Below are positions 696-31,844 of a stretch of DNA of 64,000 nt, in pieces. Position 1 is the stretch's first letter, and every line of letters starts with the position of its first letter. The DNA comes from Liolophura sinensis (Eukaryota > Mollusca > Polyplacophora > Chitonida > Chitonidae): positions 50,128,046-50,192,045 of the forward strand of contig NC_088302.1 in the NCBI RefSeq assembly GCF_032854445.1. The letters run 5' to 3'. The notes beneath the pieces are model-generated. The model saw nothing but the letters and a program-made list of their open reading frames with translations. It was not told where the DNA came from and ran no database searches. Both the position numbers and the translations under genes were made by a program.

Positions 696-824
696 TTTGT
701 GATGGTGGAGAACGTAATCAGCGCTATTGTGGACGAGTACCCGGTACTGAGAATCAGGAAGACGTGGGTGACGCTGGTCACGTGTGTGGTCATGTGTCTG
801 CTGGGCCTCCCCATTTGCACACAG
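696..824 (+). CDS. Gene A exon a1 (TM8 end to TM9)
   Basis: Acceptor TACAG precedes 696 and donor GTAACA follows 824. 129 bp, phase 0 to 0. It encodes 43 residues, FVMVENVISAIVDEYP..., ending GLPICTQ. Gene B's equivalent (28342-28473) has 44 residues, [16 protein letters not shown]..., ending GLPCVTQ, so a one-codon indel separates them. Apparent ATGs inside it are internal methionines, not starts. Confidence 0.92.
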
Positions 825-3800
825 GTAACAAGCGCCGGAGTGGCTGCTAGGGACAATCACGGCCTGTTACAATGCATTCTCATTACAACGCTTTAGACAG
901 CTCAAATCAAAAGGGAAGTGTGTCTTTAATCGATAAAATAAAAATTGTTACTGATAGATTGGCAAATGTTTGAGCACTGCATCAAGGCGAAAGACAATTT
1001 CTGATTTGTTGAAATCCCAGCACGTCTTTCACAACGCATGCGTGAGGTCTCTATCAATGTATCCGGGTTGAGAGATGACTGAATTGAACCAATGTAGTAG
1101 GAAACCTTTTAGCAATATAACAATACTGTTTTAAGAACAAAATGATGGCCTCGCTAGCTTTACAAGTTCACTCGTGAAACTACTAATCATGACTGTATTA
1201 CCAAAGTTGTTCAAAGTCTGTCAAGTATATCTTAAGAGCGGCTCGTCTTAGTTTCTTACCTAATAAACCTTCAATAAACGAGTAGGCCCCTATCATTTGA
1301 CATGATTTAGTGTATATACCAATGCGAGGTTGAACTAATGCCGTCTGATATTGTTTTAGGGGGGGATATACCTTTTTGTTCTGCTGGAGAACTACGCCGC
1401 GGGATTTTCACTACTTATCGTCGCTTTCCTCGAATGTATCGTTCTTACCTGGGTGTACGGTAGGTCTCCTCTCGGAGGGCTCCTAATTGTATGCTTTTTC
1501 CGTCAAACGGAAAAGCTGTATAATGACGTTATAGGCAAAGACCACTCTAAAATGAAGTATATATCAGATAAAAGGCCACAAAGATAGTTGGAATTTATTT
1601 GTTTTAGAATTTTCTAACCGAGAAAAATTGTGTTAAAAGATCAGATTTCACGGTGGTCTGTTGTGACCCAGAAAGTATCGATTAGGGCATATCTATCCTT
1701 TTTGTTTGAAATAATTCGTTCCAAGGTCTAATCAGCGAATACATTCATGGGTCTATATGCATTTTGAATGATGAAATGTAGCAGTCTAACGTGTGTTAAT
1801 TTGCAAAACCCGTATGTGGTTCCCATTGTGGTCATGTAGAAATGCCACCATTGAATAAAATATTCAAATGCATTTTACTAAATTAAAGGGTAAAATAAAA
1901 TAAATCCAACTATTTTCCCTGGACAATTTTTAATGGCCTTTTATCTGATACATACTCATTTTAATGTTTTTAGTGTTTAGTGCCTTTAAGTGAAAGGAAA
2001 AAATAATCTACTCATATAATCCGCCTCGTATGAACCGCATGATACACTGAACAAATTATCGCCAAATTACATCAGTGAAGAATAAACTGATATAAACCTT
2101 ATAGCAAAGAGTAAAGGCATTCTGTTTTGTGTTCTGTTTGCTAGAGGAGCCAGTTCCACAAAGCCATTTCTGATCAACTCAGAACGTTGTGCAAAATTAT
2201 GAGACCTTTAATTATCACCGTGTCCAGATTAACTAAGCATATTTAAAAAGTTTTTAATTTTGATTTAAATAAAAAAGCCGCAATGTGGAATTTCATCTTG
2301 TCAGGCTGTAAATCCCTAATATTTTCTTCTATGTCTGCAGGTTACGAAAACTTTGCTAATGACATACACATGATGCTGGGATTCAAACCGAATATCTTCT
2401 GGAGATTCTGCTGGTGTTTCCTCACTCCCGCCATTTTGTTGGTAAGGACATCTTACTAGATCTTACTTCATCTAGATCCGTCGGGCAAAGGTCTCCCAGA
2501 AAGATCCCTAATGCTCTACTCCTGAATCTTGACGTTACAAACATGGGCTACCCCGGCTCATAAGGCCACAGACTCTGAAAGATCTTGTGTCCACTTCAGA
2601 CAAAAACGGGCCATCTCATAGCAACAAACAGAAAAATAAACGTTACCTTCAGACCTACATGTGTATGTACATTACACATTTTCAGAAAATTATCTTTTGG
2701 TTGTTTCGATCTTTACGCAATTATTGCGGTAGGGCATCAAACGTAACAGTTCGGATAAACCATAAGTGGGGTAAACAGGCAAGAGGCCTGATTTCACCGG
2801 CTAGGTATGACCGTTTGCCAACTATCACACCGTCGTCGCTAATATGGCTTTGTTTTTCAAGCTGTTGTCTTTTCCATTTATCATTGTTTCCCATCTGTAC
2901 AGAAAGATTCTACTGTTCTAACCATCTCGTGCGATTTGTTAACGCCGGTATCGCAAATTCTACTTACAGTGTCGTTTCACTGTTTCAGGGTATCATGGTA
3001 TTTTCGTACGTCCAATACGCACCATCCGTTTATAACCTCTACGTGTTCCCGGCCTGGGGAGAAGCCATGGGCTGGCTGATGATGTGCTGCTCTGTTATCC
3101 TTATCCCCACCTTTATGGTCATCCAGTACTGCCGATCTGTCGGATTTGTTCAGGTAAGGACGTATATATCAAGCCATAGCTCTAGGTCCCCACCTTTATG
3201 GTCACCCAGTACTGCCGGTCTGTCGGATTTGTTCAGGTAGGGACGTCTATATCAGGTCATCGCTGCTCATCCCTACCTATATGGTGATCCAGTACTGCCG
3301 ATCTGTCGGATTTGTTCAGGTAAGGACGTCTATATCAGGTCATCGCTGCTCATCCCTACCTATATGGTCATCCAGTGCTGCCAATCTGTCGGATTTGTTC
3401 AGGTAAGGACGTCTATATCAGGTCATCGCTGCTCATCCCTACCTTTTTGGTTATCCAGTACTGCCGATCTGTCGGATTTGTTCAGGTAAGGAGGTCTATA
3501 TCAGGCCACAGCTCCTCGTCCATATTTGTATGGTGATCCAGTTGTGAGGGTCTGTCGGATTTGTTCAGGTAAGGAGGTCTATATCAGGCCATAGCTCCTC
3601 GTCCATATTTGTATGGTGATCCAGTTGTGAGGGTCTGTCGGATTTGTTCAGGTAAGGACGTCTATATCAGGCCATTGCTGCTCATCCCTACCTTTTTGGT
3701 TATCCAGTACTGCCGATCTGTCGGATTTGTTCAGGTAAGGAGGTCTATATCAGGCCATAGCTCCTCGTCCATATTTGTATGGTGATCCAGTACTGCCGAT

Positions 3801-6800
3801 CTGTCAGATGTGTCCAGGTAAGGACGTCTATATCAGGCCATCGCTGCTCATCCCTACCTTTTTGGTTATCCAGTACTGCTGATCTGTCGGATTTGTTCAG
3901 GTAAGGACGTCTATATCAGGCCATAGCTCCTCGTCCATATTTGTATGGTGATCCAGTTCTGAGGGTCTGTCGGATTTCTTCAGGTAAGGAGGTCTATATC
4001 AGGCCACTGCTGCTCATCCCTACCTTTTTGGTTATCCAGTACTGCCGATCTGTCGGATTTGTTCAGGTAAGGAGGTCTATATCAGGCCATAGCTCCTCGT
4101 CCATATTTGTATGGTGATCCAGTACTGCCGGTCTGTCGGATTTGTTCAGGTAGGGACGTCTATATCAGGTCATCGCTGCTCATCCCTACCTATATGGTGA
4201 TCCAGTACTGCCGATCTGTCGGATTTGTTCAGGTAAGGACGTCTATATCAGGTCATCGCTGCTCATCCCTACCTATATGGTCATCCAGTGCTGCCAATCT
4301 GTCGGATTTGTTCAAGTAAGGACGTCTATATCAGGTCATCGCTGCTCATCCCTACCTTTTTGGTTATCCAGTACTGCCGATCTGTCGGATTTGTTCAGGT
4401 AAGGAGGTCTATATCAGGCCACAGCTCCTCGTCCATATTTGTATGGTGATCCAGTTGTGAGGGTCTGTCGGATTTGTTCAGGTAAGGAGGTCTATATCAG
4501 GCCATAGCTCCTCGTCCGTATTTGTATGGTGATCCAGTTGTGAGGGTCTGTCGGATTTGTTCAGGTAAGGAGGTCTATATCAGGCCATTGCTGCTCATCC
4601 CTACCTTTTTGGTTATCCAGTACTGCCGATCTGTCGGATTTGTTCAGGTAAGGAGGTCTATATCAGGCCATAGCTCCTCGTCCATATTTGTATGGTGATC
4701 CAGTACTGCCGATCTGTCAGATGTGTCCAGGTAAGGACGTCTATATCAGGCCATCGCTGCTCATCCCTACCTTTTTGGTTATCCAGTACTGCTGATCTGT
4801 CGGATTTGTTCAGGTAAGGACGTCTATATCAGGCCATAGCTCCTCGTCCATATTTGTATGGTGATCCAGTTCTGAGGGTCTGTCGGATTTCTTCAGGTAA
4901 GGAGGTCTATATCAGGCCACTGCTGCTCATCCCTACCTTTTTGGTTATCCAGTACTGCCGATCTGTCGGATTTGTTCAGGTAAGGAGGTCTATATCAGGC
5001 CATAGCTCCTCGTCCATATTTGTATGGTGATCCAGTACTGCCGGTCTGTCGGATTTGTTCAGGTAAGGACGTCTATATCAAGCCATCGCTGCTCATCCCT
5101 ACCTTTTTGGTTATCCAGTACAGCCGATCTGTCGGATTTGTTCAGGTAAGGAGGTCTATATCAGGCCATTGCTGCTCATCCCTACCTTTTTGATTATCCA
5201 GTACTGCCGATCTGTCGGATTTGTTCAAGTAAGGACGTCTATATCAGGCCATTGCTGCTCATCCCTACCTTTTTGGTTATCCAATACTGCCGATCTGTCG
5301 GATTTGTTCAGGTAAGGAGGTCTATATCAGGCCATAGCTCCTCGTCCATATTTGTATGGTGATCCAGTACTGCCGGTCTGTCGGATTTGTTCAGGTAAGG
5401 ACGTCTATATCAAGCCATCGCTGCTCATCCCTACCTTTTTGTTTATCCAGTACTGCCGATCTGTCGGATATGTTCAGGTAAGGACGTCTATATCAGGCCA
5501 TCGCTGCTCATCCCTACCTTTTTGATTATCCAGTACTGCCGATCTTTCGGATTTGTTCAGGTAAGGACGTCTATATCAGGCCATTGCTGCTCATCCCTAC
5601 CTTTTTGATTATCCAGTACTGCCGATTTCTCGGATTTGTTCAGGTAAGGACGTCTATATCAGGTCATAGCTCCTCGTCCATATTTGTATGGTGATCCAGT
5701 TGTGAGGGTCTGTCGGATTTGTTCAGGTAAGGAGGTCTATATCAGGCCATAGCTCCTCGTCCATATTTGTATGGTGATCCAGTACTGCCGATCTGTCGGA
5801 TTTCTTCATGTAAGGACGTCTATATCAGGCCATTGCCGCTCATACCTACCTTTTTGGTCATCTCGTACAGCCGATCTGTCGGATTTGTTCAGGTGAGGAC
5901 GTCTATATCAAGCCATCGCTGCTCATCCCTACCTTTATGGTCATTCCAGTACTGCCGATCTATCGGTATTGTTCAGGTAAGGACGTCTATATCAGGTCAT
6001 AGCTCCTCGTCCATATTTGTATGGTGATCCAGTTCTGGCGGTCTGTCGGATTTGTTCAGGTAAGGACGTCTGTATCAGGCCATCGCTGATCATCCCTACC
6101 TAAATTGTTGTCCAGTACTGCCGATCTGTCGGATTTGTTCAGGTAAGGACGTCTATATCAGGCCATTGCTGATCATCCCTACCTAAATTGTTGTCCAGTA
6201 CTGCCGGTCTGTCGGATTTGTTCAGGTAAGGAGGTCTATATCAGGCCATCGCTGATCATCCCTACCTAAATTGTTGTCCAGTACAGCCGATCTGTCGGAT
6301 TTGTTCAGGTAAGGAGGTCTATATCAGGCCATTGTTGATCATCCCTACCTAAATTGTTGTCCAGTACTGCCGATATGTCGGATTTGTTCAGGTAAGGACG
6401 TCTATATCAGGCCATTGCTGATCATCCCTACCTAAATTGTTGTCCAGTACTCCCGATCTTGTTCAGGCATCACTGGAAGTCTATATCAGTCACTGTTCGA
6501 GCTCCATTACAAAACGCAAAATGAAATTATTTTATTTTTATTTATATATGAAATATAGCATAGCGTTCAAAGACAACATACACTGTACAAACACTTTGAC
6601 AGCATGGTTTGAATTAACCAAATTTTTGTTCAGGTTCATGCATATGCTTGAGGTCAACATTCCCCCAATGTTTCCACCTTCGAAGAAACAAAAGCTTGAA
6701 CAGCTAAATTTGTCCTCACGGCGGCTTTAGATCTAGGATGTGGTCATTGCTGTGGTCAAATCTCTAACCTTAACACTTGTTTCCTATTTTGTTTTACATC

Positions 6801-7036
6801 AGTCTTGCCGTAAAGTGGTGAACCACAGGAGCGACTGGGGACCGGCCTTAGAGAAATACCGGGCGTTGGATCCGAGGTATAAAACGCGTCTGGAAACAGA
6901 CCTCGACGTCATAGAACGGAAATCAACGTCAGGCGTCAGTGTTGGGGCCACAGTCAATGACGAAGTCCGGACGAACAATCAACGCAAAGCCGCTTGTAGC
7001 AGAACAAATGCGGCATATGAGGAGGACCCTATATAA
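696..7036 (+). CDS. Gene A: SLC6 glycine-transporter-like, 3' part (5 exons)
   Basis: This is the carboxy-terminal part of a Na+/Cl--dependent amino-acid transporter of the plasma membrane. CDS exons are 696-824, 1360-1459, 2341-2441, 2989-3153 and 6803-7036 (TAA at 7034-7036). Their first four lengths (129, 100, 101, 165) equal or nearly equal gene B's 132, 100, 101, 165, and the intron phases (0,1,0,0) are the same. The protein shows late TM8 to TM12, with family motifs such as ISAIVDEYP, GLPICTQGGIY, IHMMLGFKPNIFW and LGW-type MGWLMM, then a 77-residue tail starting SCRKVV with the DWGPAL motif also seen in vertebrate glycine transporters. The fourth intron is filled by an 83-bp tandem array of the preceding exon end. 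The tail ends EEDPI. Substrate cannot be assigned because TM1, TM3 and TM6 are outside the window. Confidence 0.9.
1360..1459 (+). CDS. Gene A exon a2 (TM10)
   Basis: Acceptor TTTTAG ends at 1359 and donor GTAGGT begins at 1460. 100 bp, phase 0 to 1. Reads GGIYLFVLLENYAAGFSLL... ending VLTWVY. GGIY plus a Y/D-YAA-F core is the conserved TM10 signature of the family. Same length and phase as gene B 29156-29255. Confidence 0.92.
2341..2441 (+). CDS. Gene A exon a3 (IL5 to TM11)
   Basis: Acceptor CTGCAG ends at 2340 and donor GTAAGG begins at 2442. 101 bp, phase 1 to 0. Reads GYENFANDIHMMLGFKPNIF followed by WRFCWCFLTPAILL. The DI-MM-G--PN-(F/Y)W pattern is the family's TM10-TM11 loop signature. 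Matches gene B 30457-30557 in length. Confidence 0.92.
2989..3153 (+). CDS. Gene A exon a4 (TM12)
   Basis: Acceptor TTTCAG ends at 2988 and donor GTAAGG begins at 3154. 165 bp, phase 0, the same length as gene B's TM12 exon (30883-31047). Reads GIMVFSYVQYAPSVYNLYVF, then PAWGEAMGWLMMCCSVILIP, ending YCRSVGFVQ. An earlier TTACAG (to 2969) was not chosen because the B alignment is gap-free from 2989. Its last ~50 bp are the founder of the 83-bp array that follows. Confidence 0.92.
3154..4979 (+). repeat. Higher-order repeat, two 913-bp blocks of 11 units
   Basis: Within the 83-bp array, units 1-11 (3154-4066) and units 12-22 (4067-4979) have the same order of variants: CCGG, CCGA, TGCTGCCAA, CCGA, TTGTGAG, TTGTGAG, CCGA, a CAGATGTGTCCAG variant, TGCTGA, TTCTGAG, CCGA. 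Both blocks share the rare GTAGGG donor (3237 and 4150). The distance is exactly 11 x 83 = 913 bp. This is a recent block duplication, with few differences such as TTCAAGTAAGG at 4312-4322. Confidence 0.93.
3154..6480 (+). repeat. 83-bp minisatellite made from an exon-intron junction, ~40 copies
   Basis: The whole first half of gene A's last intron is a tandem array with a strict 83-bp period: donors at 3154, 3237, 3320, 3403 and so on to 6392. The only one-base slip is near 5945. Each unit is ~50 bp from the end of exon a4 (ATGGTCATCCAGTACTGCCG to TTTGTTCAG) plus 33 bp of the start of the intron (GTAAGGACGTCTATATCAGG...). Each unit therefore carries a 5' splice site, usually GTAAGG; exceptions are GTAGGG at 3237 and 4150 and GTGAGG at 5893. 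Variants of the last 27 nt include TACTGCCGATCTG, TTGTGAGGGTCTG, TTCTGAGGGTCTG and TACTGCTGATCTG. The final unit (6443-6480) is decayed. Period 83 is not a multiple of three, so read-through is not open. Confidence 0.97.
6803..7036 (+). CDS. Gene A last exon a5 (cytoplasmic tail, stop)
   Basis: Acceptor TTTTACATCAG ends at 6802. 234 bp, phase 0, stop TAA 7034-7036. Encodes 77 residues, SCRKVVNHRSDWGPALEKYR..., ending NAAYEEDPI. WGPAL aligns with WGPALPENR in gene B and with the WGP-L motif I recall in vertebrate glycine transporters, just after TM12. The rest of the tail is hydrophilic and shows no similarity to B's tail. The last four residues could act as a type III PDZ ligand; this is only a motif guess. 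Confidence 0.9.
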   Translation, partial: SCRKVVNHRSDWGPALEKYRALDPRYKTRLETDLDVIERKSTSGVSVGATVNDEVRTNNQRKAACSRTNAAYEEDPI

Positions 7037-11500: not shown

Positions 11501-13098
11501 TTGTTGTTGTTTTCCAGGTTCCTTGGAGCTGAAAGGGTATTGGTTCAAAAACTGGTGGGAAAACTGCGCAGTGAACAGGTTCAGAGAATTATCTGATATA
11601 TCACCCCGTATAGCCCTATTTATTTATTCATTTATATTTAGTATCTCATTTACATAATAATATCTCACTTAGGAGATGTTCTCTTTCGTACCAGATAAAC
11701 AAACAACATACAAGTGTTTGCAGACGCCAAATCCCATCCAAGCTTATTGCAACTTTTTACTACCTTATTACAAGTGGCTTTAGTTTTACTTCCATGCTTA
11801 GTTTTACATCCTTACCCAGACTAATGTATTCTTCTCATCAGTTAAGGTGCTTATAAAAATCTTATTTGCTCATTACACGTATACTCTATGCTGTGCATGT
11901 GCGTATCAGATATATTCTATCTCGCCGGTGAGAATTCAGTTCTCCTGTCAGGGTTTAGCTATTCGAGAAAGGCCGAGGCAGGGCAATATATCATAGTTCT
12001 CGGGTTGCCAGTGTGAACACATCGCCCCATTTTCCTCTCCTTTGTTGTAGTTAGCGCTTTGTTACCAAGATTCGCCGTGTTGTTGACACATGTTTATGAG
12101 GTGGAGAAGTACGAGCGCAGGTATTCACAAAATGGACGTCTGGTCTATTTTTTTTTAATATCTCAGGTTAGCCAGAGGTTTGTCCATGAACGCCATTGTC
12201 GCGATACAACTGTGATGGTTGGATTATCTTTGAACTGCTTGGATACTCGAAGATTCCTTGTATTTTGATGTTCATCTTTTAATGGATCACACAATAAAGA
12301 AAGTGTTTCTTTTATAAACACATTTTTGTCACAGTTTTCAAACGCGCCCTGCATACGTCATAACGACTACGTTTAACAATTTAACAGATGTTTACATAGT
12401 AATGTGGTGGATATGTTAAGCAACCACAAATAAAAGTGTTCAATATGTGAACCTGTGACACGTTGTAAACACTTTTACACGTTTATCAGATTTTTATCAC
12501 CGTATTACTAATAAAATATTTCATGCGTTTATTATAATAAGCTCATTTCTTATTCCTAGACATATACTTTAAATATTAAAACCATGGCGTAAAACTGTAA
12601 CAAAATATGCTTACAAACGAAACACTTATGTTTAGAGTGCATGGAATCTTGCTGTATGCTGATCAAGTTATAAAGGTTCAGCATATTATGATTCCAGGCT
12701 ATGTTCGTCTCAACTCTGATGTTCCGTGACAAATTTATGTACAACTCATGTTTGTAAATGTGTAGAAGGTAGATCAGCTAGAGGTTTTTGGGCAAGATTT
12801 ACGGGAGGAGTAAAACAGAGTATAACACTGCATATAGGTGCCTGTAAGAAAAAATCAACTTACTTTAACTTTGTTGACAATCTCTAAATAGATAATAGAT
12901 AATTATGAACGTATAGTACACATATATGTTGGTTGGTTATAACACTGTATTACTAGTTTTGATCCAGAAATCTCTTCCGTTTTCCCTGTTAGGTTTATGT
13001 TGATTAGATTCACCGCGCGAGGAAGGGTGTTGGTGGCTGAGACTCAGACCTGACTAATCGGAATAACGGATAACTTATTGTAACTTGCAACATCGCGT

Positions 13099-13495
13099 AT
13101 GTGTAGATGGGTGTATGTATGTATGGATGGATGTATGAATGAATGGATGGATCAGTGTATGTGTAGGTGGGTGTATGTATGGATGGATGTATGTATGAAT
13201 GAATGGATGGATCAGTGTATGTGTAGGTGGGTGTATGTATGGATGGATGTATGTATGAATGAATGGATGGATCAGTGTATGTGTAGATGGGTGTATGTAT
13301 GGATGGATGTATGTATGAATGAATGGATGGATCAGTGTATGTGTAGATGGGTGTATGTATGAATGGATGTATGTATGAATGAATGGATGGATCAGTGTAT
13401 GTGTAGATGGGTGTATGTATGGATGGATGTATGTATGAATGAATGGATGGATCAGTGTATGTGTAGGTGGGTGTATGTGTGGATGGATGTATGTA
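13099..13495. repeat. 60-bp minisatellite, ~6.6 copies
   Basis: The unit is built from ATGGATGGAT/GTATGTAT words (e.g. GTATGAATGAATGGATGGAT, then CAGTGTATGTGTAGRTGGGT) and repeats exactly every 60 bp with few changes. Because 60 is a multiple of three, long frames stay open on both strands and would encode low-complexity MCRWVYVWMD or HPSIHTPTYT repeats. I read these as artefacts of the repeat. It ends about 450 bp upstream of the gene B start codon. Confidence 0.95.
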
Positions 13496-20800: not shown

Positions 20801-23800
20801 ATGTTACACAATATTACATACTGTTTTCGTCGATCATGTTGCCTAAACTATTTCAGGCGTGACTTGATGCAACATTTTCACTTTATTATGTATACCGCTT
20901 CATATGTTAACCAACAAAACATTCTTTGACGAGTCTCCATATTACTTCCTCATTCATGAACACTATTTCTGTGTGATCAGTCCTACATTTGGTGGGACAT
21001 GAATATAATGCAGACAGAAACGACGTTTGATATAGCCTACTGCCCAGTGTGACCCAACAGTGGAAAATCCCCAAACTCTGTCACACCCAGAATTGGCAAC
21101 TAGCAACCACAGCAAATGGGGTCAGCTTGAATAACATATCAAGCGAGAAAGTCAAAGGGTTGTGTAAATATCGCATACGGGGGTAGGGGTATAATTGGTG
21201 GGAGTGGCTCCACTGGGTGCCTGGGTCATGCATGGTGTGTCCACATAATAAGTCTCCAGGTAAATGCGTTGTGTAAAGTGTATTGGTGTTGCCCAACACG
21301 AATGACAAAGAAACCCATGCCAGGTGTCTGAGGTAGGGCAAATTAACCTTATAGTGACGTGTCCAGATACGCCACTGCATGGCAACGGTGTTTTTGATTT
21401 TTTGTTGTTTTCTTTATCTGCTGTAAAAACCCAAGGAAATGCCTCAAGATATATAGATATACTTTAATCATGAGACTCGGTGCTTTAGATCCCTAATTAA
21501 TTCGCTATTTCCCCCACATTATTCAGACGTCATTATATAATGAAAAGCACCCATGAACCTGTTATATCCTTCGCATAATATTTTCACAGAGAAGGCCGCT
21601 TAACAAATGGCGATCCTGTTGGAAGGGATAACCCGCGCAGAATACACCTATGCTTCCCGATTACAGTGAATTTACGTGCAGCGGATCCAAGATTTCTTAT
21701 TTTCTCTTTATTAGACCGACAAACAAACCTTACCGACACGGTCGCTATAATGGCGTATGGGTCATGTCTATATCACATGAGATAAGTTTATTTTATACTC
21801 AAAGCCTTGAAGAAGTCTCATCGAAATGATGCCCTCGGTTGTTAACCACGGACGCTCTTTAAGTTACCCATGATCCATCAGATATAAACGAAGCATCCTA
21901 CACTTTTTGTTAAATATTTCTGTCGATACACCGACCTGTACGAAGTCAGTGTCGACATAAGACACCCGGATCAGAATACGCACGCACAGAACAAATCTTA
22001 GCCGTCTGCGGTTTTGGGTTGTTAACACAGTCGTCTCAAATCTCCCGTTTACTCCGGCAAGTCAGGAGACAGATGAGACTGTCTTTTTGTCTCCCGTAAC
22101 ATTTTCATCGACCCCATTTGCCGCATCACGTTTCTTCATCCCAGGTCAGACTTATTTAAAGAGGCTAAGATGATGCCATGTATTGTATACATGTCTGAAT
22201 ATATTAATTGTTATCCAATCGAAGGGGGATAACTCCGGCTATGTAACCGAACAGGTCGGAATATCCGTTTGTATCTCAGACGCCGGAAGTCGGTTATGAA
22301 AAGTGCATGTATAAGCATTGCTTCAAACTCATTAGGATCTGACTCCCTGACGCATAAATACATGTAGATTAACTGAACCGATAAAAATTAATGCATGACG
22401 ACCATCAAATAAGTGAAATATTCTTGAGTGCAGTGTAAAACACCAAACCAATAAATAAATAAATGTAAAAATGTTTGTCTTAATTTTTTGCATTAAATAA
22501 AATGAAGTCTAATTTTCGAAGACGCTACAATCAGTGTTTCACTTCACGTGACCTGTTTTATGTTGGAAGAACTCGTTTTTGTACATACTTATGGAGCCCT
22601 CCGTGGCCCAGTTGGTTAGCGCGCTAGCGCGACATAATATCCCAGGAGCCTCTCACCAATCCGGTCGTTCTCAGGTCAAGTACAGCTCATGCTGACTTCG
22701 TCTCTGACCGTACGAGGGAAGGGTTGTCCCGGGGCTCTGCCTGGTTTCCTCCCACCATAATGCTGACCACCGTCGTATACGTGAAGTATTCTTGCGTACG
22801 GCGTAAAACTAACTAAATAAGTAAATACCTATGTATCACACTAGCAATCCAAAGTACATTTGAACCAAGGTAAAACAGAAGCATAACAGCTGAGTTTAAC
22901 ATTAGTGCCACCCAACACCATCAGTATGTTCCATGAATAACCTAGCAGAATTCAAGTACATAACTCCATTTTATTACGTTAAAAATATCTTAGAAAAAGA
23001 ATTTCAAATTTCTATTGGCCTTCCCACTCACGTTTATCTGTTTGTGAGCTATTTTCACTTTTAACATGAATTATATGACGAATCAAACAACTGGTCCATG
23101 CTACTAAGTCATTACCAATAATGCGCAGGTCTAGGACACGTGACAATCCAGATTTCTCTTGGTCTGTTGGGACTTTACGTCAGTATGATTATTAGGTACT
23201 TGGCGAAGGGCGATCATTTCCAAAGGGCGCTTTCTTGCTTTGCTCATAAACTTGAAGGCGCTGATATTGGTGAAACATTCTTGAGCACGGCGTATAACAT
23301 CAAGAGAATATGTAAATAACTAATTCAACATGTTCTTGTGTTGTAGAAGGCGGAGGCTGCCTTGAACGACCAGGAGCTGAAGGATGCGGCTGAGGATGCT
23401 AAGGAGCGTGGTCAGTGGGGTGGCAAGCTGGACTTCCTTCTCTCCTGCATCGGCTATGCGGTCGGCCTGGGTAATGTCTGGAGATTCCCCTACCTATGCT
23501 ACAGAAACGGAGGAGGTAAGACATCTGGTGAAGGTCACCTGTTTGACACTAGGGACACCTTAAAAATGGTGTGCTTCAACGTTTTGTTGGGATACGCATC
23601 TAATGATATGTCCGGGACTAGTATTTCAAACAAGCTGAAAGAAATGGTGATGTTAACTTATTCGCGTTGTGCTCAGAATGATGTCTTCATTGTGAAAAAC
23701 AAAAAAAAAAGCAAAATAACCCCATGATCGCCGTTGAATTATTAAATGATGCATATGCTAAGAAGAAAACGACAAATGATTAATTTGTCTATAATTACGC

Positions 23801-26800
23801 AAAAACTAAAACGGCTAAACATAAATGTCCGTATTTGCCCTTTCAGCTGTGTTCCTCATCCCCTATATTGTTATGTTGGTACTTGCCGGACTTCCCCTCT
23901 TCTTCATGGAACTTGCCTTTGGTCAGTTCAGTTCCCTCGGCTGTATCACCGTCTGGAGGGTCAACAAGCTGTTTAAAGGTAATCCTTACTGTCCATCCTG
24001 CTGACTATCGGTTATCCGAAATTTTTATCATGTAGTCTAACGGTAATCCTCGCTGATCATCCTACAGTCAAACGGTAAACCTTCCTGACCGCCTTGTGGT
24101 CTAACCGTGATCTTTAATGCTCATCCTGCACTCTAACGGTAATCCTCTTTATTCCTCTTGAAGTCTAACAGTAATCGTCGCTATTCCTCCTACAATCTAT
24201 GCTCAGAGTTGGATTTTCGAGAGCATGCGACGCACTGGTCTTGTATCTCGAAAAGCTCCGTCCTGGATATATCACTAATCAACCTATAAGCTGTTCGCAT
24301 ATCCCTTACTTTCCTGCTCAGTTTCCTTAAAGCTCTATGGTCCTCAGTCTGCTAAACGTGTATCCACCAGGAACACAAAAGATTACCAGCTTGAACTCGT
24401 AAAATGTTAACCACATTAGCTAATAATATTAGTTTTTTTAGTTTGTTTTCAAGATTTTTAATGGATACATGAAATCCTTTATTTCTTAATATGGAGTATA
24501 CGAGGTGCCTAACATATAAAAGTGCAAGAAAGTTTCTCAGCATTATTTTTGGGGGTGAAGAGAGCCCAAACTGGGGACGCTTAGCTGGTCCCGCGTTCCC
24601 AGTATGTTCTTCGATGACGTCATTTCCGAATATTTCCGACTCTTAACGGAAATATGCATAAACAGAGGGTTATTAAGAAACATAAAATATGCCTCAGAAA
24701 TAAAATAAAAAAATTCTCATTTTTTGGCGTATCTTTTTCATTTTCTTTAAAACCATAATTTTGATTTATACATGTAGTACCTTTTCATGTAACATTTTAA
24801 ATTAATAAACATTTTATTTTTTTTTCAACATAATAGACATTTTAGACTAAAAAATTGCATAAGAAAAAAGACCCCCCCCCCTCCCACTCTCTCTCATTCT
24901 CCTTATGCTTTTTAGTGTATATGTAATGTATCATTTACATCTTCTGCGCAGGTCTGGGCTGGGCTATGATCACGGTGTCCTCGCTGGTCAGTGTCTACTA
25001 CAACGTGATCATCATGTACGCGCTCTTCTACCTGTTCGCGTCCTTCACCTCGGAGGTTCCCTGGCAGGAATGTCAGGAACCCTGGGCATCCAGCACCTGT
25101 CTAAAGCTTCAGAGGATCCAGGACTACGAGACAGACTTCGAAAAGCTGTCGTCCATCACAGGTAAACACAGGTTCATATTGAGGTTGTGTGACCGTGTCT
25201 GGTTGAGCAGTACACGTGCTTAGACGATAAGGTCGAAGTTCAAATCCAGCCTTCGCTGGATTGGCTGTGGCTTTACGTCTGATGCTTTGCCGTGAGACTA
25301 ACATGGTGCGGTGGCTTTCCCCAAGTTCTGACTGGTTTCTCCACAAACAGACGTATATAGAATATCTTCGGGTACATTTTCAAGTATTGCTTGCCATGAG
25401 AAGATTATATTTACAACCTAAAGCGCAATCTCAAAGAATCGCAAAGACGGTGGTTTACCCCGGGCACTTCGGTTTTCTCCACCCATCAATAATTCTGACT
25501 GTCATCGTGGCATTCCTCCACCTATAAACAAAACTGACTGTCATCGTATAAGTGGCATTCCTCCACCTGTACACAAAACTGACTGTCATCGTATAAGTGG
25601 CATTAAACAATCAATCAATTAATCAACCAATATCTTCTTGCAGATCGGTACAATATGTCGTGCACGGCAGACACTTTACCAATGGTCAATGTGTCCGTGA
25701 ACGGGTCTCTGCTATTGGACACAATGATCAGCGACACCAACATAACCCTGGACAACCCAGCACTGGCAAACTTCACCGTTGATAAACTAAGAATAGACCT
25801 GTTGCCGAATGTTACCTTACTCCTTGACAATTTACCGGCACCTAACGCCACCGTTGGAAACACGGTCTACTACATTCTCAGGGAATATCTTTCAGCTTGT
25901 AAAAACAAAATTACTTCGCCGAGCTCCGATTTTTGGAGGTAAGAGTACTGTGTGCCGTTTTGGTAGACCCTTGTTGGAAAAATGTAGATTGCTGCTTAGT
26001 AGATGCTAGACCTCTGTTTATAATTCTTTGTGGACTACCGTTTTGTAGACCCCTGGTTGAAAATCTTTGTGGACTACCGTTTTGCAAATGTTTTTATGGA
26101 TCCCTAATGGAAAACCCCTTTAGACTTCTTTTTTGCAAATGTTTATGTAGACCCTTTTGGGAAACCTGGAGGACTACCGTTTTGTAGGTGAAAAATCCTT
26201 TTTTTACTGTTTTGTGAATCCTTTCTGGGGAAAAGCTGCAGGGCTACGGTTTCGTAGATGTTTACGTAGACCCATGGCGTGAAAAGCTAGAGGACTACCG
26301 TTTTGTAAATGCTTATGTAGACCACTGTTGATAAATTTTTGTGGACTACCGTTTTGTAGATCTTTATGAATGTCCATGGTTGGAAATCTCATATACCCCC
26401 CCAAAGCTATAATTTCGAATCGGTAAATGCTTTAATTCATTTTAATTGGGTGTGGTCAACAGCTATTACATGTACGAGCTGGAGGAAGGCAAAGGGATCG
26501 AAAGCCTAGGAACGGTCAAATGGCAGTTGGCCTTGACCTTGCTCCTAGCCTGGGTCATCGTGTTTCTGTGCCTAATGAAGGGAGTGAAGTCCTCAGGAAA
26601 GGTTAGATCTTACAAATTATACTGTTTTCTGCCTCTTCTATCTCTTCCAGTACGCAAACAACATAATACACAGCTGTTGGTCGAGTTTCCAAAGACGATT
26701 TGCTTCTGCCCACGTTTATTTAAGACTCATGTTCGAATGCATTTACCGACGGCTTTCTGAAGATCTGCTCTAAAATGTATGTCACATTCGACAAAGGCCA

Positions 26801-29800
26801 TGGTTATGGACCTGACAGAGTTTAAGAGACACATTTGGCATATAACCTGAGAGTCGTGGAAATCGATGTGAGCTCCGAACCAACCAACCCAACACTCTTA
26901 TCGCCTGTACGCATAGGAGTATCCCTGAAAGTCAACCATTAAAAATATCATCATAAGCACTCAGACAGCTTCATGGCTGGTCATATTTGAGGTTACATTC
27001 CATTTTTGTTGTCCAGGTCGTGTACTTTACAGCCACGTTCCCGTATTTGGTACTGGTCATTCTGTTGGTCCGAGGGGTCACTCTTGATGGTTACACGAAA
27101 GGTATAGAGTTCTACATCATTCCAGACTGGTCCAAACTGGCCAATCCGAAGGTGTGGGCAGACGCAGCCACGCAGATTTTCTACTCACTGGGGCCAGCAT
27201 TTGGAGGATTGATAACGTTTGCCAGTTACAACGAGTTCAACAACAACTGTCTCAGGTACTCTTTATAACCTTCAACATCCGCCACACAATTTCTCTACTT
27301 GTCAAGATCACACTTTGTCGGGATCGTAAACCAGACAGAAATTTCACCCTGACCAAGATTATTAGAAATATACAAATCCTCATCAAAATAGGAAATAGTG
27401 GTAGCAACGACTACTTGAAAAAAAAAACGTATATAGAAACACATTTGTCGCAGCTCTGTTTAAGCAGAGCGAACGTGTGTGTTGGCGGTAAATCCAAGTG
27501 TGAAACCTCACGTAAGCGAATGATTATGAATTCAAATATATTTTGAATGTATTTTTAGAGTGCATGTGTTGCAAAAATTGCTGTTGTGGTGAAATTAGTA
27601 TGTTTAGTAAACCCACTGTAAAACCGTGTGCCAAGGGTTTTCGTGCCTATAGATGCTTTCATTATCTAGTTTTTATATAGCTTTCATTAGTTCAGTTCTA
27701 AGCCACCCTATGTACTGTTGTTTTTGTTTTGTTGTCTCTCAGAGATGCCGTGTTGGTCACCGTGATCAACTGTGCCACGAGTGTGTTTGCTGGATTCGTC
27801 ATCTTCTCCGTCCTGGGCTTCATGGCCTATAGCACGGATCAGTTGGTGTCAGAAGTGGCAGCTGACGGACCGGGGTTAGCCTTTATTGCTTATCCAGAAG
27901 CCATAGCCAAGATGCCTGTAGCACCATTGTGGGCTATTCTCTTCTTCTTCATGTTGCTGACTCTGGGTCTAGACAGCCAGGTAATATCAGGCGAAGTGTT
28001 AAGATACGCCGTTCAAGAATAACACGAATGAAAATACTTCCCAGAAGATCATTTTACTATGCTGTCCCGACGTTACCAATGCATTTACCATGATGACGTA
28101 TACCTTCAGTGGGGAATGCTCCGTCATGGTTTGATAGTCGTAATCAAACGTAATCGAATACTTTAACTGTTGTAAGGTCAGTGATTTAGTGTTTGTAAGT
28201 GTAAACCAAATGAATAGTATACTTTTCCATTTTAGTGACGTTTTTATTGCACTTGAAAGAAGGGAGGGATGATCTTGTTACTTTCTTATGCTTTTTAACC
28301 ATTACCTTAATAACTGCTGCAAACCTATTTTATGTTTTCAGTTTGGAATGATGGAAACGATCATCAGCGCCATTTCCGATGAGTTTCCGAACATTCTCCG
28401 ACATCGAAAGATGCTCTTGACAGCAGTTTGTTGCTCCGTAGGTTTTCTAGCTGGGCTTCCTTGTGTTACTCAGGTATGTGCAGAACAATATTGACCTTCT
28501 CACACATGAGTGTTCAGCATGGTTTAACTCGTGTGAAAAGATAGGCAAATGTATTCTGGTTACAATGTATGAAGCAACACTGGTATCGTCAAAGCTTTGT
28601 TCATTATTGGTAGACTCATATAAGTGTTTTTACAACAGTTTCTTAGGTAAAAAGATATGTAAAGTCATCTGATGTATGTTTCAATGTCCAGACCTACGGA
28701 AATATTAAAACGGGTATTTGTATTTATCATTGTGTTGTTTAACGCATATACTCAAGCATTTTCAACTGATACTAAAGCGTCCAGTTTTGTGGGTGATTGA
28801 AATCGGAATACCCGGGTAAATATCAATGTTTGGCAGGTCACTGACGGACTTTACGATGTAAAACGTGTACATTTGCTCGCCATATTCGTGAAGGCTATTG
28901 ACCTTCTGTGAACGTAAGACTGCACAAAACGAGCACCGTGGACTGTTTTTTGCGGAGAACTTTCTGACCAACAAGTTTCTCGCTTTACAGTTCAGAGACA
29001 TGCTCAATTATTATAATATGAAAACATAATCCTTTAAGGAATTGTTAATGGCGTTTTACCGAGGTTAATTCCACTTGAGGCCATGCCTGATTTTCTACGC
29101 CATTTTAAAGTTTCTTTCTACCATTTAACTTGGCCTAACTTTGCTTTCTCCACAGAGAGGTATCTACGTCCTACAGCTAATGGATTGGTACTGCGCCAGT
29201 TATTCTCTTCTCATTATCTCGTTTTTTAACCTGGTCGTCATCATGTGGATTTACGGTACGCCACAAATCTGTGTAAACTTGTGTATATACCCCCTCCCCT
29301 CTCCTCCTCTCCCATCCCCTCCCCCCCCCCCCAACACACACACAAAAGTATGTATCAGCTGTATTGCTCAAACAACACTCGAAACATACAGTAAAAGATC
29401 ACCGAAAGAAAAACAATGGCCAATTAATTAGTTATGACGAACAAGATAGTGACAAATTACAAAAACGTCTGCACCACAGGGAAAGTAAAGCTAAGACAAC
29501 CCATGTATAACACAAAAGACAATGGCAAAGTATTTTAGTTATGTACCACTCGCAAAACAATGATGAGAGAATGATAAAATGGTTACGCACCACAGAAAAG
29601 AGAACGAAAACATGCTTAATTACCATATGAAAAACAAAAACAAATTCAGCAGCTATCACACTAAAGCCGCTTAACGACACGAAAGACAATAACGAAATGG
29701 TTAAGTCTGTCACACGAAAGACAAGCCTAAATTTTGTATATATCACACTATTAAAAGACAGTTGCAAAGTGCCCAGGTTATACTCGAAAGCCAGATAAGC

Positions 29801-31844
29801 ATTCTGTCTAAATATACCAATTGCCAGATTTCATAACGTGTGAAAATATCCTGAATTGGTTGCCATTCTGCGGCCGCTGAGATTTCAGAGTAGGCATATT
29901 TATCACGCATTAAACCCCTCGCCAACAAACAAAAGCCACCTGTTTTACCCTTGAAGCCACGAAAAGTCATAATAACAGTTGTACTCTTGGCAGCTTTGGT
30001 GGCCTAATGGCTAGAGTGTCCGCCACGAAGTCATTGCATCTGGAATCCATTTGGGTCGTTGCATACCAAAGACTTTTAAAATGCTACTTGTTGGTACCTC
30101 CCTTTGCGCTTAGAACTGAGAGGTTGGAGCAAAGAAAGAGGACTAGTTGGCTGGTAATGTGACTGGAAGGGGTGTCATGTCTGATGCCTTCGGCATGGTA
30201 TTTAAGTCGCGTCAGCACTTTGGCTCAATGGACTCGCCACAAGAATGTACAATAAACTGGCTTGATTGAATATTTTATGACATGCTGTCTGTTGCTAGTT
30301 GTTATGATCTGATGTTACTGTCCTAATATTTTGTTTTCTCGTTTACTAATAACGACAAACACCCATATGCTCTTCTATAATCCTGACGTCAGCTCACCTC
30401 AATACATTTTTCAAAGTTATTCTTTTTAGTTTTCATTCTGTAATATTTTTTTTCAGGTTACCGAAGGTTCTCGCGAGATATTGAGATGATGATAGGGAGC
30501 CGCCCTAACTACTACTGGGCCTCCATGTGGTGTGTGATCACACCCCTTGTACTCGTGGTAAGTATGTGTGAGAGTACTTCTTGTCGTATGGATATTGAAT
30601 CTTAGTTTGTTACAGGATACTGTTTCATTCTTCTTATTGTATTTGGGCACATTTATTACGCTAACTTATTTCAATAATCTTTGTTCAGATCTCTACCATG
30701 AAAATTTTATTTTTACTGCTGACACAATGGCTGGTTCTTAAAACTTTATGCAACTGACCTCTGTTACAATTACTTCATGCCAGAAATCTTGCGCTTTATT
30801 GAAATCCTATCTAAATGTGGGTGATGATGTAAAATAGTTTCCTCCTTCATATATAAACTAATGATGGTTTTGCTTTACACAGTTTATCTTCATATCATCG
30901 GCTGTTCGGAACACTCCGGCCTCGTATGGAGATTACGTGTTCCCCGAATATGCTCAAGGCCTGGGTTGGGTTATGATGGCAGTGTCTATAATCAACATCC
31001 CTATCTTCTTCATTTTCGAGGTCATCCGTGATAACGAACTGATGAGCGTAAGTCAAGCCCCACTGTTTACATTCCAGGGATAATCTGACCCTGCATGGAA
31101 AGCACAGTAGGCCTACATGTACATTATAGCGCCTCGCTGTAAGACTTCTACTCCTCTACATTTTACTGTGCTAAAATGAACAAGAAAGACTAGATAAATA
31201 TCATTAAGATTGAGACTTACATGAGATTATTCTTATTTATTTATAACACTGTTTTAGTCGTATGTAGCCACATTCCTGTTTTTCATCATGTCTGTGAAGA
31301 GCTATATGCTATGTATGCGCTCCCCAACTTTCATATCGATGCCCCAAAATGTCTGAGTTCTCTCTACGACAATCTAGGGTCGCAGAGCTTCCAGGTCATA
31401 GGCGGCCACGGGACCCCCACCGGTAATAAGCTGAGATGGTTGCTCGCCTATTTTTGGGAATGTATTTTGTATTGTTTTTTTTATACTTTGGTTTTTTTTG
31501 TTTTGTTTTGTTTATTTCCTTTTTTCAATTTAGTGACTTTTTTTAAATTTCAGGCTATTAAAGAAGCGATGTCCCCGGCAAAGACATGGGGTCCCGCCCT
31601 GCCAGAAAACCGGACGGGTGATTATGCCTATACCAACAGTGCGTATCAACCGGACGAGGTCGTGCTGGACACCGTGTCCAGTGACAACATCACTGCTAAC
31701 GGTCAGACGAAGGGTCATCTCAACGGTCAAGCGAACGGCAAAGCCAACGGTCAAGCTAATGGGCAGAGCCCACCAGAGTATCCAGGAGAACCAGCAAGAT
31801 TTTCTGCTTTAGACCGAGCGGAAGAAGCAGACACGCACATGTAG
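13942..31844 (+). CDS. Gene B: complete SLC6 glycine-transporter-like protein, 13 coding exons, 745 aa
   Basis: Predicted plasma-membrane Na+/Cl--coupled transporter of a small amino acid or related amine. Exons: 13942-13968, 23347-23515, 23847-23978, 24952-25161, 25644-25938, 26463-26601, 27017-27255, 27743-27980, 28342-28473, 29156-29255, 30457-30557, 30883-31047, 31554-31844. All junctions are GT/AG and keep one frame; the CDS is 2,238 nt. Conserved features: [15 protein letters not shown] (TM1, N52, R55), IPY (Y72), a C-x8-C pair after VPW in EL2, [10 protein letters not shown] (TM6a region), TQIFYS (Q377, S381), NCATS (N413, S417) and GLDSQ (D481, S482). By homology to SLC6 structures these are Na+ and Cl- ligands. 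FGQFSSLGC and LFKG-LGWAMI favour the glycine-transporter branch. Odd points are NGGAVF in TM1, AFGG in TM6, an EL2 of ~130 residues with seven N-x-S/T sites, and an NGQ-rich tail ending ADTHM. Confidence 0.93.
14816..14875. repeat. (TA)n microsatellite
   Basis: About 30 uninterrupted TA dinucleotides in gene B intron 1. It produces spurious IYIYIY open frames on both strands. Confidence 0.97.
15590..15775. repeat. Degenerate ~35-bp tandem array, 5 copies
   Basis: CCGGTTTCCTTCGTGGTTTA-like units recur at about 15602, 15637, 15673, 15706 and 15741, separated by TTATAACCTCCGAGCAC-type spacers. The period is 33-36 bp with substantial drift between copies. Confidence 0.85.
17940..18222 (-). mobile_element. 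Foldback-family element, single arm, reverse orientation
   Basis: Contains GAGAGTAAAATCAGAGCAAC, then GTGGTAGTTGGCAAAGGGTC, then TCAGGGTTTTATTCTAACTA and CATGTAAATGC, followed by CGCCCCTAGCACCATA and GTCATCACATGTAATAAAC. This is the reverse complement of the arms at 8271, 32973 and 35905. No coding capacity. Confidence 0.65.
18844..18866. repeat. (AT)n microsatellite
   Basis: Short run of alternating A and T, about 11 repeats, inside gene B intron 1. Confidence 0.9.
19749..20008 (+). mobile_element. tRNA-derived SINE copy
   Basis: Starts GGAGGCCTCTGTGGA and has an A-box-like segment with the hallmark GCTAGCGCGCTAGCGC. A B-box-like GTGAGTTCAAGTCCAGC follows, then a body with TACGTGGGAAGGTCTGCCAG. 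The 3' end is GAGTACGGCGTAAAGCGCC and an AATAAA-rich tail. The same body is seen at 22592, 34170, 44277 (reverse), 49785 and 56456. The Pol III box assignment is by consensus resemblance. Confidence 0.8.
22395..22462 (+). mobile_element. 3' fragment of the same SINE
   Basis: ATAAGTGAAATATTCTTGAG then TGCAGTGTAAAACACCAA and an (AATA)n tail match only the 3' end of the SINE family. Confidence 0.7.
22592..22828 (+). mobile_element. tRNA-derived SINE copy
   Basis: Contains GGAGCCCTCCGTGGCCCAGT, TTGGTTAGCGCGCTAGCGCG, CAGGAGCCTCTCACCAAT, a body with CGTACGAGGGAAGG and the tail CTTGCGTACGGCGTAAAACT. Slightly shortened in the middle compared with 19749-20008. Confidence 0.8.
23255..23320 (+). mobile_element. 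SINE 3' fragment just before gene B exon 2
   Basis: GGTGAAACATTCTTGAGCAC and GGCGTATAACATCAAGAG resemble the SINE 3' end. It lies about 30 bp upstream of the acceptor of exon 2, so it may contribute to that acceptor's upstream context. Confidence 0.45.
23347..23515 (+). CDS. Gene B exon 2 (N-terminus, TM1)
   Basis: Acceptor TTGTAG ends at 23346 and donor GTAAGA begins at 23516. 169 bp, phase 0 to 1. Reads [20 protein letters not shown], then [20 protein letters not shown], then [28 protein letters not shown] is the TM1 signature, and RG-W-GKLDF is the usual lead-in. The charged helix before it has no match in gene C. Confidence 0.95.
23847..23978 (+). CDS. Gene B exon 3 (TM1b-TM2)
   Basis: Acceptor CTTTCAG ends at 23846 and donor GTAATC begins at 23979. 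132 bp, phase 1 to 1, identical in length to gene C exon 3. Reads [20 protein letters not shown], then [20 protein letters not shown], then KLFK. The IPY tyrosine (Cl- site) and FGQF motif are present. The usual NGGGAF reads NGGAVF across the junction. Confidence 0.95.
23979..24202 (+). repeat. 32-bp tandem repeat starting exactly at a splice donor, 7 copies
   Basis: Units start at 23979, 24011, 24043, 24075, 24107, 24139 and 24171, each 32 bp. Each begins GT(A/T/G)A(T/A)CC-like and ends TCTAACG or similar. The first unit's GTAATCC is the active donor of exon 3. GTAATCC or near copies (GTAAACC, GTGATCT, GTAATCG) recur at each unit start. Copies are diverged but in strict register. Confidence 0.85.
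24952..25161 (+). CDS. Gene B exon 4 (TM3, start of EL2)
   Basis: Acceptor TGCGCAG ends at 24951 and donor GTAAAC begins at 25162. 210 bp, phase 1 to 1. Reads [20 protein letters not shown], then [20 protein letters not shown], then [16 protein letters not shown]3 contains the conserved VYYNVI tyrosines. VPW and the C-x8-C pair mark the EL2 disulfide. Gene C has no intron at this exon's 3' boundary. Confidence 0.94.
25205..25615 (+). repeat. SINE-like and short tandem repeats in gene B intron 4
   Basis: AAGTTCAAATCCAGCCTTCG at about 25237 resembles a B box, and CTGACTGTCATCGTATAAGT recurs at 25494, 25534 and 25579 with CATTCCTCCACCT spacers (40-45 bp). It ends in CAATCAATCAATTAATCAA. Probably a decayed SINE whose tail was locally duplicated. 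Confidence 0.5.
25644..25938 (+). CDS. Gene B exon 5 (EL2 glycosylated loop)
   Basis: Acceptor TTGCAG ends at 25643 and donor GTAAGA begins at 25939. 295 bp, phase 1 to 2. Begins [20 protein letters not shown] and ends SPSSDFW. It is the unusually long second extracellular loop, with sequons NMS, NVS, NGS, NIT, NFT, NVT and NAT. It joins exon 6 as [12 protein letters not shown], equivalent to [12 protein letters not shown] in gene C. Confidence 0.93.
25948..26385 (+). repeat. ~51-bp degenerate tandem repeat just after a splice donor, ~8 copies
   Basis: The core GGACTACCGTTTTGTAGATG recurs at about 26032, 26071, 26171, 26292 and 26343. Decayed copies start near 25955 (GTGCCGTTTTGGTAGACCC), 26122, 26205 and 26241. 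The full unit is about 51 bp and includes TGTAGACCCTTGTTGGAAAA. Shorter 34-40 bp units also occur. The first copy lies within about 15 bp of the exon 5 donor. Confidence 0.85.
26463..26601 (+). CDS. Gene B exon 6 (TM4-TM5)
   Basis: Acceptor GTCAACAG ends at 26462 and donor GTTAGA begins at 26602. 139 bp, phase 2 to 0. Reads [20 protein letters not shown], then [20 protein letters not shown], then [23 protein letters not shown] is a strong SLC6 TM5 signature. It is two codons longer than gene C exon 5. Confidence 0.94.
27017..27255 (+). CDS. Gene B exon 7 (IL2/TM5-TM6)
   Basis: Acceptor TGTCCAG ends at 27016 and donor GTACTC begins at 27256. 239 bp, phase 0 to 2. Reads [20 protein letters not shown], then [20 protein letters not shown], then [20 protein letters not shown], then [19 protein letters not shown]. 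Exactly the sum of gene C exons 6 and 7 (135 + 104), so this gene lacks the intron C has before VWGDAA. The TM6 core is SLGPAFGG. Confidence 0.95.
27743..27980 (+). CDS. Gene B exon 8 (TM7-TM8)
   Basis: Acceptor CTCTCAG ends at 27742 and donor GTAATA begins at 27981. 238 bp, phase 2 to 0. Reads [20 protein letters not shown], then [20 protein letters not shown], then [20 protein letters not shown], then [25 protein letters not shown] and GLDS hold Na+/Cl- ligands by homology. It equals gene C exons 8 and 9 fused (125 + 113). Confidence 0.95.
28342..28473 (+). CDS. Gene B exon 9 (TM8 end-TM9)
   Basis: Acceptor TTTTCAG ends at 28341 and donor GTATGT begins at 28474. 132 bp, phase 0. Reads [20 protein letters not shown], then [20 protein letters not shown], then CVTQ. 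ETII-AISDEFP is a family-wide motif close to the glycine-transporter version. Confidence 0.95.
29156..29255 (+). CDS. Gene B exon 10 (TM10)
   Basis: Acceptor CTCCACAG ends at 29155 and donor GTACGC begins at 29256. 100 bp, phase 0 to 1. Reads [20 protein letters not shown], then [13 protein letters not shown]. Same boundaries as gene A exon a2. Confidence 0.94.
29996..30265 (+). mobile_element. Second tRNA-like SINE family copy (gene B intron 10)
   Basis: Begins GGTGGCCTAATGGCTAGAGT (A-box-like, tRNA-head style). It continues with ACTGAGAGGTTGGAGCAAAG and GTGACTGGAAGGGGTGTCAT, and ends GTCAGCACTTTGGCTCAATGG...AATAAA. The same body is at 45716-46000 and a partial one at 45530-45650. Confidence 0.65.
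30457..30557 (+). CDS. Gene B exon 11 (TM11)
   Basis: Acceptor TTTTTCAG ends at 30456 and donor GTAAGT begins at 30558. 101 bp, phase 1 to 0. Reads [20 protein letters not shown], then [25 protein letters not shown] is conserved in glycine-type members. Confidence 0.94.
30883..31047 (+). CDS. Gene B exon 12 (TM12)
   Basis: Acceptor TTACACAG ends at 30882 and donor GTAAGT begins at 31048. 165 bp, phase 0. Reads [20 protein letters not shown], then [20 protein letters not shown], then [15 protein letters not shown]. The LGW core of TM12 is kept. Unlike its twin exon in gene A, no tandem array follows it. Confidence 0.94.
31554..31844 (+). CDS. Gene B exon 13 (cytoplasmic tail, stop)
   Basis: Acceptor AAATTTCAG ends at 31553, and TAG ends at 31844. 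96 residues: [20 protein letters not shown] at the start, then a hydrophilic middle with [20 protein letters not shown]. It ends [16 protein letters not shown] matches WGPALEKYR in gene A. The NGQ/NGK run is a short internal repeat of the ACGGTCAAGCGAACGGC type. T-H-M fits a class I PDZ ligand (T at -2, hydrophobic last), as described for mammalian glycine transporters; function here is inferred. Confidence 0.93.
   Translation, partial: AIKEAMSPAKTWGPALPENRTGDYAYTNSAYQPDEVVLDTVSSDNITANGQTKGHLNGQANGKANGQANGQSPPEYPGEPARFSALDRAEEADTHM

Follow-up and report, generated by a model that had tools for sequence, protein, structure and literature searches.

The window analyzed here is a 64-kb stretch of the genome of the chiton Liolophura sinensis (C8:50128046-50192045), and near its start it carries the 3' part of a gene for an SLC6 transporter, which we call gene A. 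When the five exons a1-a5 of this gene (Table 1) are joined, they give an open frame down to a TAA stop that reads as an SLC6 C-terminus. Searches with the part near exon a4 hit the SLC6 family in Pfam (PF00209, E 2.9e-9) and, in the PDB, transporters of γ-aminobutyric acid (GABA) and of glycine (best E 5.5e-9); the exon-intron model is a predicted one, built on this homology and on the reading frame. Intron 4 is largely filled by an 83-bp minisatellite that begins inside exon a4 and carries a 5' splice site (donor) in every unit. The structure, origin and possible consequences of this array are the subject of this analysis.

The 83-bp array and its host gene

Tandem Repeats Finder reports the array with a period of 83, 40.4 copies, 87% matches and a score of 4357. 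Segmentation on an 83-bp grid resolves it into 40 full units and a broken 41st that starts at 6424. The 40 donors fall at 3154, at 3237 and onward to 6392, and unit 35 contains one extra base. Each unit corresponds to the final 51 bp of exon a4 and the initial 32 bp of intron 4, so that the array stands in register with the exon end, and its length and identity far exceed chance. GT is present in 40/40 units, where the donor hexamer is GTAAGG in 37, GTAGGG in two and GTGAGG in one, and CAG/GT is found in 37/40. No other 83-bp array was listed by Tandem Repeats Finder within the window.

These results agree with the original prediction, which had described an exon-intron junction of a transporter gene amplified as an 83-bp minisatellite, with GTAAGG kept in nearly every unit. 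Its division of the unit into about 50 bp of exon and 33 bp of intron was correct in that the unit spans the junction and is replaced by the lengths measured above. It had given the acceptor of the final splice junction of gene A as 6802, which is the last base of the intron, the last exon beginning at 6803.

Table 1. Features of gene A, its array and the upstream paralog (window coordinates unless a locus is named)
Feature	Position	Strand	Basis or remark
Exon a1 of gene A (3' part of gene)	696..824	+	frame across joined exons; 94.8% identity to paralog exon
Exon a2	1360..1459	+	joined frame; single donor here, homologous paralog donor is the 38-bp x ~32 array
Exon a3	2341..2441	+	joined frame; Pfam SNF match of frame running into a4
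Exon a4 (TM12 region), last 51 bp seed the unit	2989..3153	+	joined frame; SLC6 homology
83-bp minisatellite	3103..6459	+	Tandem Repeats Finder and unit segmentation; 40 full units and part of a 41st
First donor (CAG/GTAAGG)	3154..3159	+	translation of joined exons
Intron 4, 3649 bp, ~91% array	3154..6802	+	array call and joined reading frame
In-frame stop TAG inside donor 2 (GTAGGG)	3238..3240	+	translation; encountered in every transcript that uses donor 3 or a later donor
Units 3-12, first block copy	3269..4098	+	recurs 11 units (913 bp) further on
Units 14-23, second block copy	4182..5011	+	3 differences in 830 nt from units 3-12
Degenerate downstream end of 83-bp array	6424..6480	+	Tandem Repeats Finder/unit segmentation
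Last exon a5 (cytoplasmic tail, TAA stop)	6803..7036	+	joined frame
38-bp x ~32 array in paralog	L009:9269-10000 to L010:1-486 (C8:50107268-50108485)		donor of exon a2

The genome searched comprises 609,464,459 bases in 632 contigs, of which C1 has 96,433,062 bases. It matches the assembly published as Liolophura japonica, which has 609.5 Mb, 632 scaffolds and a longest scaffold of 96,433,062 (PMC11068029); the species name has since been corrected to L. sinensis (PMC12441733). An amphioxus source, considered because of the mirages described below, was set aside: a search of the genome for GFP proteins gave no match, which says little as no positive control accompanied it, and the order of the mitochondrial genes has a molluscan look. 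Elsewhere in the window, further SLC6 exons at 23347-31844 and at 49-61 kb indicate a tandem cluster of transporter genes, and a 60-bp tandem repeat (Tandem Repeats Finder, 6.7 copies, 97% identity) at 13097-13495 holds many GTATGT-like words. Outside it, and in addition to C632, one contig (G000:C99) carries seven COX1 copies ~15.5 kb apart and is probably the mitochondrial genome assembled as a multimer.

Growth of the array and related arrays in the genome

Units 3-12 recur as units 14-23 with 3 differences in 830 nt, and eight of the ten unit pairs show no difference. The block, 913 bp or ~11 units long, has thus been copied recently, in line with the earlier proposal of recent amplification by unequal exchange. 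Among the 40 units there are 29 distinct sequences.

The tandem paralog of gene A ~21 kb upstream carries six units of the same array at L010:1750-2235, the sixth with a broken donor, so that copy number differs between the two genes (40 and six) in the one assembled haplotype. Paralog units 3 and 4 are each 82/83 identical to gene A unit 3, although the 114 bp of exon a4 ahead of the unit are only 81.6% identical between the paralogs and the first units agree at 73/83. This discrepancy points to exchange between the two arrays after the genes had diverged. We also note that exon a1 (window 696-824 vs L009:8496-8630) is 94.8% identical between the paralogs while exons a3 and a5 are 81-83% identical, which suggests that gene conversion may have acted at exon a1 as well. 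A second, unrelated array lies at exon a2 of the paralog; its 38-bp unit joins 20 bp from the exon end to 18 bp of intron, and GT is kept in 30 of its 32 or so copies. Gene A has a single donor at the homologous site.

Similar arrays occur elsewhere in the genome. We inspected 18 further donor-motif arrays, ten found through triples of CAGGTAAGT (from 16 separate arrays counted among 100 places listed) and eight through triples of AGGTAAG, all eight within the first 3 Mb of C1. Three of the first set begin at the exon end of a recognizable conserved gene, namely DNA-PKcs (L060, E 6e-41), a glycosyl hydrolase family 31 (GH31) glucosidase (L063, E 6e-13) and fumarylacetoacetase (L064, E 5e-14). 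Another starts where an open exon preceded by AG ends, with no family match found for it (L059), and one starts at a GC donor whose exon resembles polycystin-2 weakly and not significantly (L065, E 0.04). No clear exon was found for L061, L062, L066, L067 or L068. The five anchored arrays of these ten are not an unbiased rate, since a regular look had partly guided the choice of L059-L062. From the AGGTAAG set, a small three-donor array follows a Raptor exon (L055, E 5e-11) and is not called by Tandem Repeats Finder; no exon was seen at five others, and L054 and L056 are ambiguous. In all, 6/18 arrays are anchored at the end of a coding exon, two of them with weaker support, and 12/18 have no clear exon. 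The stretch of C1 from 0.49 to 2.95 Mb (G000:C1, L050-L058) is a chromosome end packed with minisatellites of many units, where no exon was seen at most donor-motif arrays. In 4/9 anchored arrays the first donor, presumably the authentic one, is weaker than that typical of its array (GTAAAT in L059, GTATGT in L063, GCGAGT in L065 and GTAGGG at exon a4 of the paralog), and in 0/9 it is stronger; as a strong motif led to most of the arrays, this comparison is biased and we do not use it as evidence.

Tandem donor motifs were also counted across the genome. AGGTAAG triples number 3086 vs 1452 for the reversed motif, and CAGGTAAGT triples spaced 45-75 bp number 437 vs 106 for its reverse; the corresponding single CAGGTAAGT sites number 9807 vs 4849. 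The one-base control CAGATAAGT gives 70 triples and 5601 singles. Counted by eye in C1 and in C2 to 22.3 Mb, distinct arrays number 16 for the donor motif and 4 for the control. Fifty-six of the first 100 listed CAGGTAAGT sites fall in clusters vs 0/100 for the control, but these sites lie in the minisatellite-rich end of C1, where no exon was seen at most arrays. Once motif abundance is allowed for, the excess is ~twofold and borderline, and most of it is explained by blind minisatellite formation everywhere, with some arrays happening to cover donors and surviving.

Donor use and competing explanations

The donors of the array differ in what they would do to the message. Among those translated, donor 1 alone preserves the frame of the SLC6 C-terminus. 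Splicing from donor 2 would cause a frameshift and a stop 16 nt into the last exon, leaving 42 residues counted from YCRS vs 86 via donor 1. Translation from donors 3-7 ends at the TAG within donor 2, at least 82 nt ahead of the last junction, and donors beyond the seventh must meet the same stop because it lies upstream of all of them. Intron 4 directly follows the last membrane segment (TM12), and therefore only the cytoplasmic tail is affected by donor choice.

We consider it quite probable that the array is a minisatellite of the mirage type described in amphioxus, in which an exon-intron boundary is duplicated in tandem, and that it has grown neutrally by unequal exchange and is tolerated while the first donor is used. 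A tandem duplication covering the exon a4 end together with its donor would have arisen first, and unequal exchange, or slippage, would then have raised it to 40 units while the array exchanged sequence with that of the tandem paralog. Since exon a4 and the first donor are unchanged and all added copies follow them, splicing from donor 1 would keep these copies within the intron, which would explain why the array is tolerated. On this account, donor 1 would be the one mainly used and the array would bring no benefit; stray use of later donors would give tail-swapped messages (donor 2) or messages of the type subject to nonsense-mediated decay (NMD; donor 3 on) at a tolerable level.

The recent block copy, the exchange with the paralog, the unlike 38-bp array of the paralog, the arrays at donors of other genes and the undisturbed splicing reported for amphioxus mirages speak for this account. 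The conservation of the donor also bears on it. For 29 units, with units 13-23 set aside as a recent copy, we compared the donor 9-mer with all 83 circular nine-column windows of the unit. The donor has 4 private changes in its 9 columns, about the average of the unit, and 51/83 windows have equal or fewer. Shared variants mirror the turnover of the array as much as selection, and private changes were weighed more because they are less tied to that turnover. On this weighting the donor columns offer no good evidence of selection, and retention of donor function, which the original prediction had raised as a cause of the strong donors, is not borne out by this measure. In the exonic part of the unit, minor alleles at codon positions 1, 2 and 3 average 2.65, 2.71 and 3.35, with no clear codon-position signal, and the coding reading decays along the array: the 27-nt tail segment is open in 31/40 units, and several units contain stops.

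Several observations weigh against passive tolerance. When all minor alleles are counted, the donor 9-mer has 4, a value as low as that in only 4/83 windows, which ranks it with the least variable parts of the unit and favors the earlier idea of retention. The scoring of each donor that had been proposed with the prediction was run as predicted pairing with the 5' end of U1, and 37/40 unit donors reach -11.2 kcal/mol or stronger. The three other donors of gene A that we examined reach -8.0, -9.0 and -8.5 kcal/mol. With downstream donors this strong, passive tolerance must explain why donor 1 is not outcompeted. Finally, donor-motif arrays are ~twofold above the expectation from motif abundance, a borderline result, and a blind process would not need such an excess. 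A bolder account may be entertained, although we find it doubtful: in this chiton exon-donor junctions would be preferred seeds of minisatellites genome-wide, the spliceosome would pick the first of dozens of near-identical strong donors because of where it lies or when it is transcribed and not because of its strength, and the arrays would supply tail variants and future introns.

The strength of the downstream donors could also mean that the array serves regulated unproductive splicing or a tail switch, with donor 2 producing a short new C-terminal tail and later donors producing NMD targets that lower transporter output. The position of the intron just after TM12, where only the cytoplasmic tail changes, would suit this, as would the stop of donor 2 in the last exon and that of later donors well upstream of the last junction. 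We nevertheless judge it unlikely, given that private changes are not depleted in the donors, that the array in the paralog stops at six units and its sixth donor is broken, and that the paralog has 32 copies of another unit at a second exon, which speaks for a habit of mutation more than for a single regulatory design. A still less probable role is the recruitment of U1, in which many U1 small nuclear ribonucleoproteins would be held on the transcript, guarding a long intron from premature polyadenylation, slowing splicing or titrating U1 locally. The predicted pairing of the unit donors stands out for this purpose, as a single site reached -7 kcal/mol among the 130 other GT sites covered by a scan of sections of the gene A introns, yet the private changes give no sign of selection on the donors, and without the array the intron would be ~0.3 kb long and need no guarding.

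We regard it as very improbable that the units act as splice units, either as recursive AG/GT sites or as 27-nt micro-exons (YCRSVGFVQ), bounded by an internal CAG and the donor, that could be removed or included in frame. The sequence is suggestive of both, with CAG/GT in nearly all units and an internal CAG 27 nt ahead of the donor, a multiple of 3, in 38/40 (unit 35 being read one base off); 9-14 of the 17 bases before this CAG are pyrimidines vs 11-13 in five genuine acceptors. The tract before AG/GT is nonetheless poor (9-11 of 17), a stop occurs in 9/40 of the 27-nt segments, and the intron between adjacent units would be only 56 nt. Least probable of all is an assembly artefact at a locus with one or few true units: tandem repeats can be mis-assembled and coverage was 14x, but the HiFi reads averaged 8,347 bp and could therefore span the 3.4-kb array (PMC11068029), 29/40 units are distinct, the paralog carries a shorter array of the 83-bp unit, and like arrays exist elsewhere in the genome.

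Significance and comparison with known systems

The choice of the spliceosome among identical donors is usually studied in made constructs of two or three sites, and the natural series of 40, 32 and 6 donors in two paralogous genes lets position, order and number be separated. Mirages are also extended from cephalochordates to a mollusc, several conserved genes providing examples, and it becomes directly possible to count junction-born repeats, and any introns founded by them, throughout the genome.

Among known systems, ordinary intronic minisatellites share with the chiton array its strict period, unequal exchange and higher-order repeats, but the chiton array starts inside a coding exon and has a donor in every unit. 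Tandem alternative 5' splice sites (PMC2423196) likewise place several donors behind one exon; those donors lie a few nt apart, whereas the chiton donors are 83 nt apart, in 40 copies, and arose by segmental duplication. The Rogers model of intron gain, as outlined in PMC3087553, also involves tandem AG/GT copies, as proto-splice sites, inside a gene; in the chiton the intron pre-existed, the copies lie within it and no new intron is seen.

The closest relatives are the mirages of amphioxus, minisatellite-like tandem duplications of exon-intron boundaries in Adh3 and globin genes, for which RT-PCR (reverse transcription polymerase chain reaction) suggests regular splicing and whose lengths differ between haplotypes (PMC3087553). 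Troponin C and PGBD5 were added later, again with splicing reported as undisturbed (PMC3902484). In the parts of these two papers available to us, the traits common to the cases in Adh3, BflGb6, BflGb9, troponin C and PGBD5 are a boundary-spanning tandem unit, kept splice signals and concerted evolution within a cluster. The 83-bp array has a boundary-spanning unit, a first copy that by homology and frame is the authentic junction, kept splice signals and concerted evolution. Its unit size and that of the paralog array (83 and 38 bp) fall in the range of the mirages, which is 10-72 bp in Adh3 and 150-160 bp in the globins (PMC3087553). The systems differ in copy number, 40 and 32 in the chiton vs 3-6 in BflGb6; in the boundary copied, 5' in the chiton and both in amphioxus; and in the host, a mollusc vs a cephalochordate. 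Our literature search, which covered few subscription papers, found no mirage-type case in molluscs, and the accessible portions of the chiton genome papers checked contain no mention of minisatellites. The chiton array is a genuine mirage-type array and, within the literature searched, what is new is its phylum, its size and its recurrence across genes.

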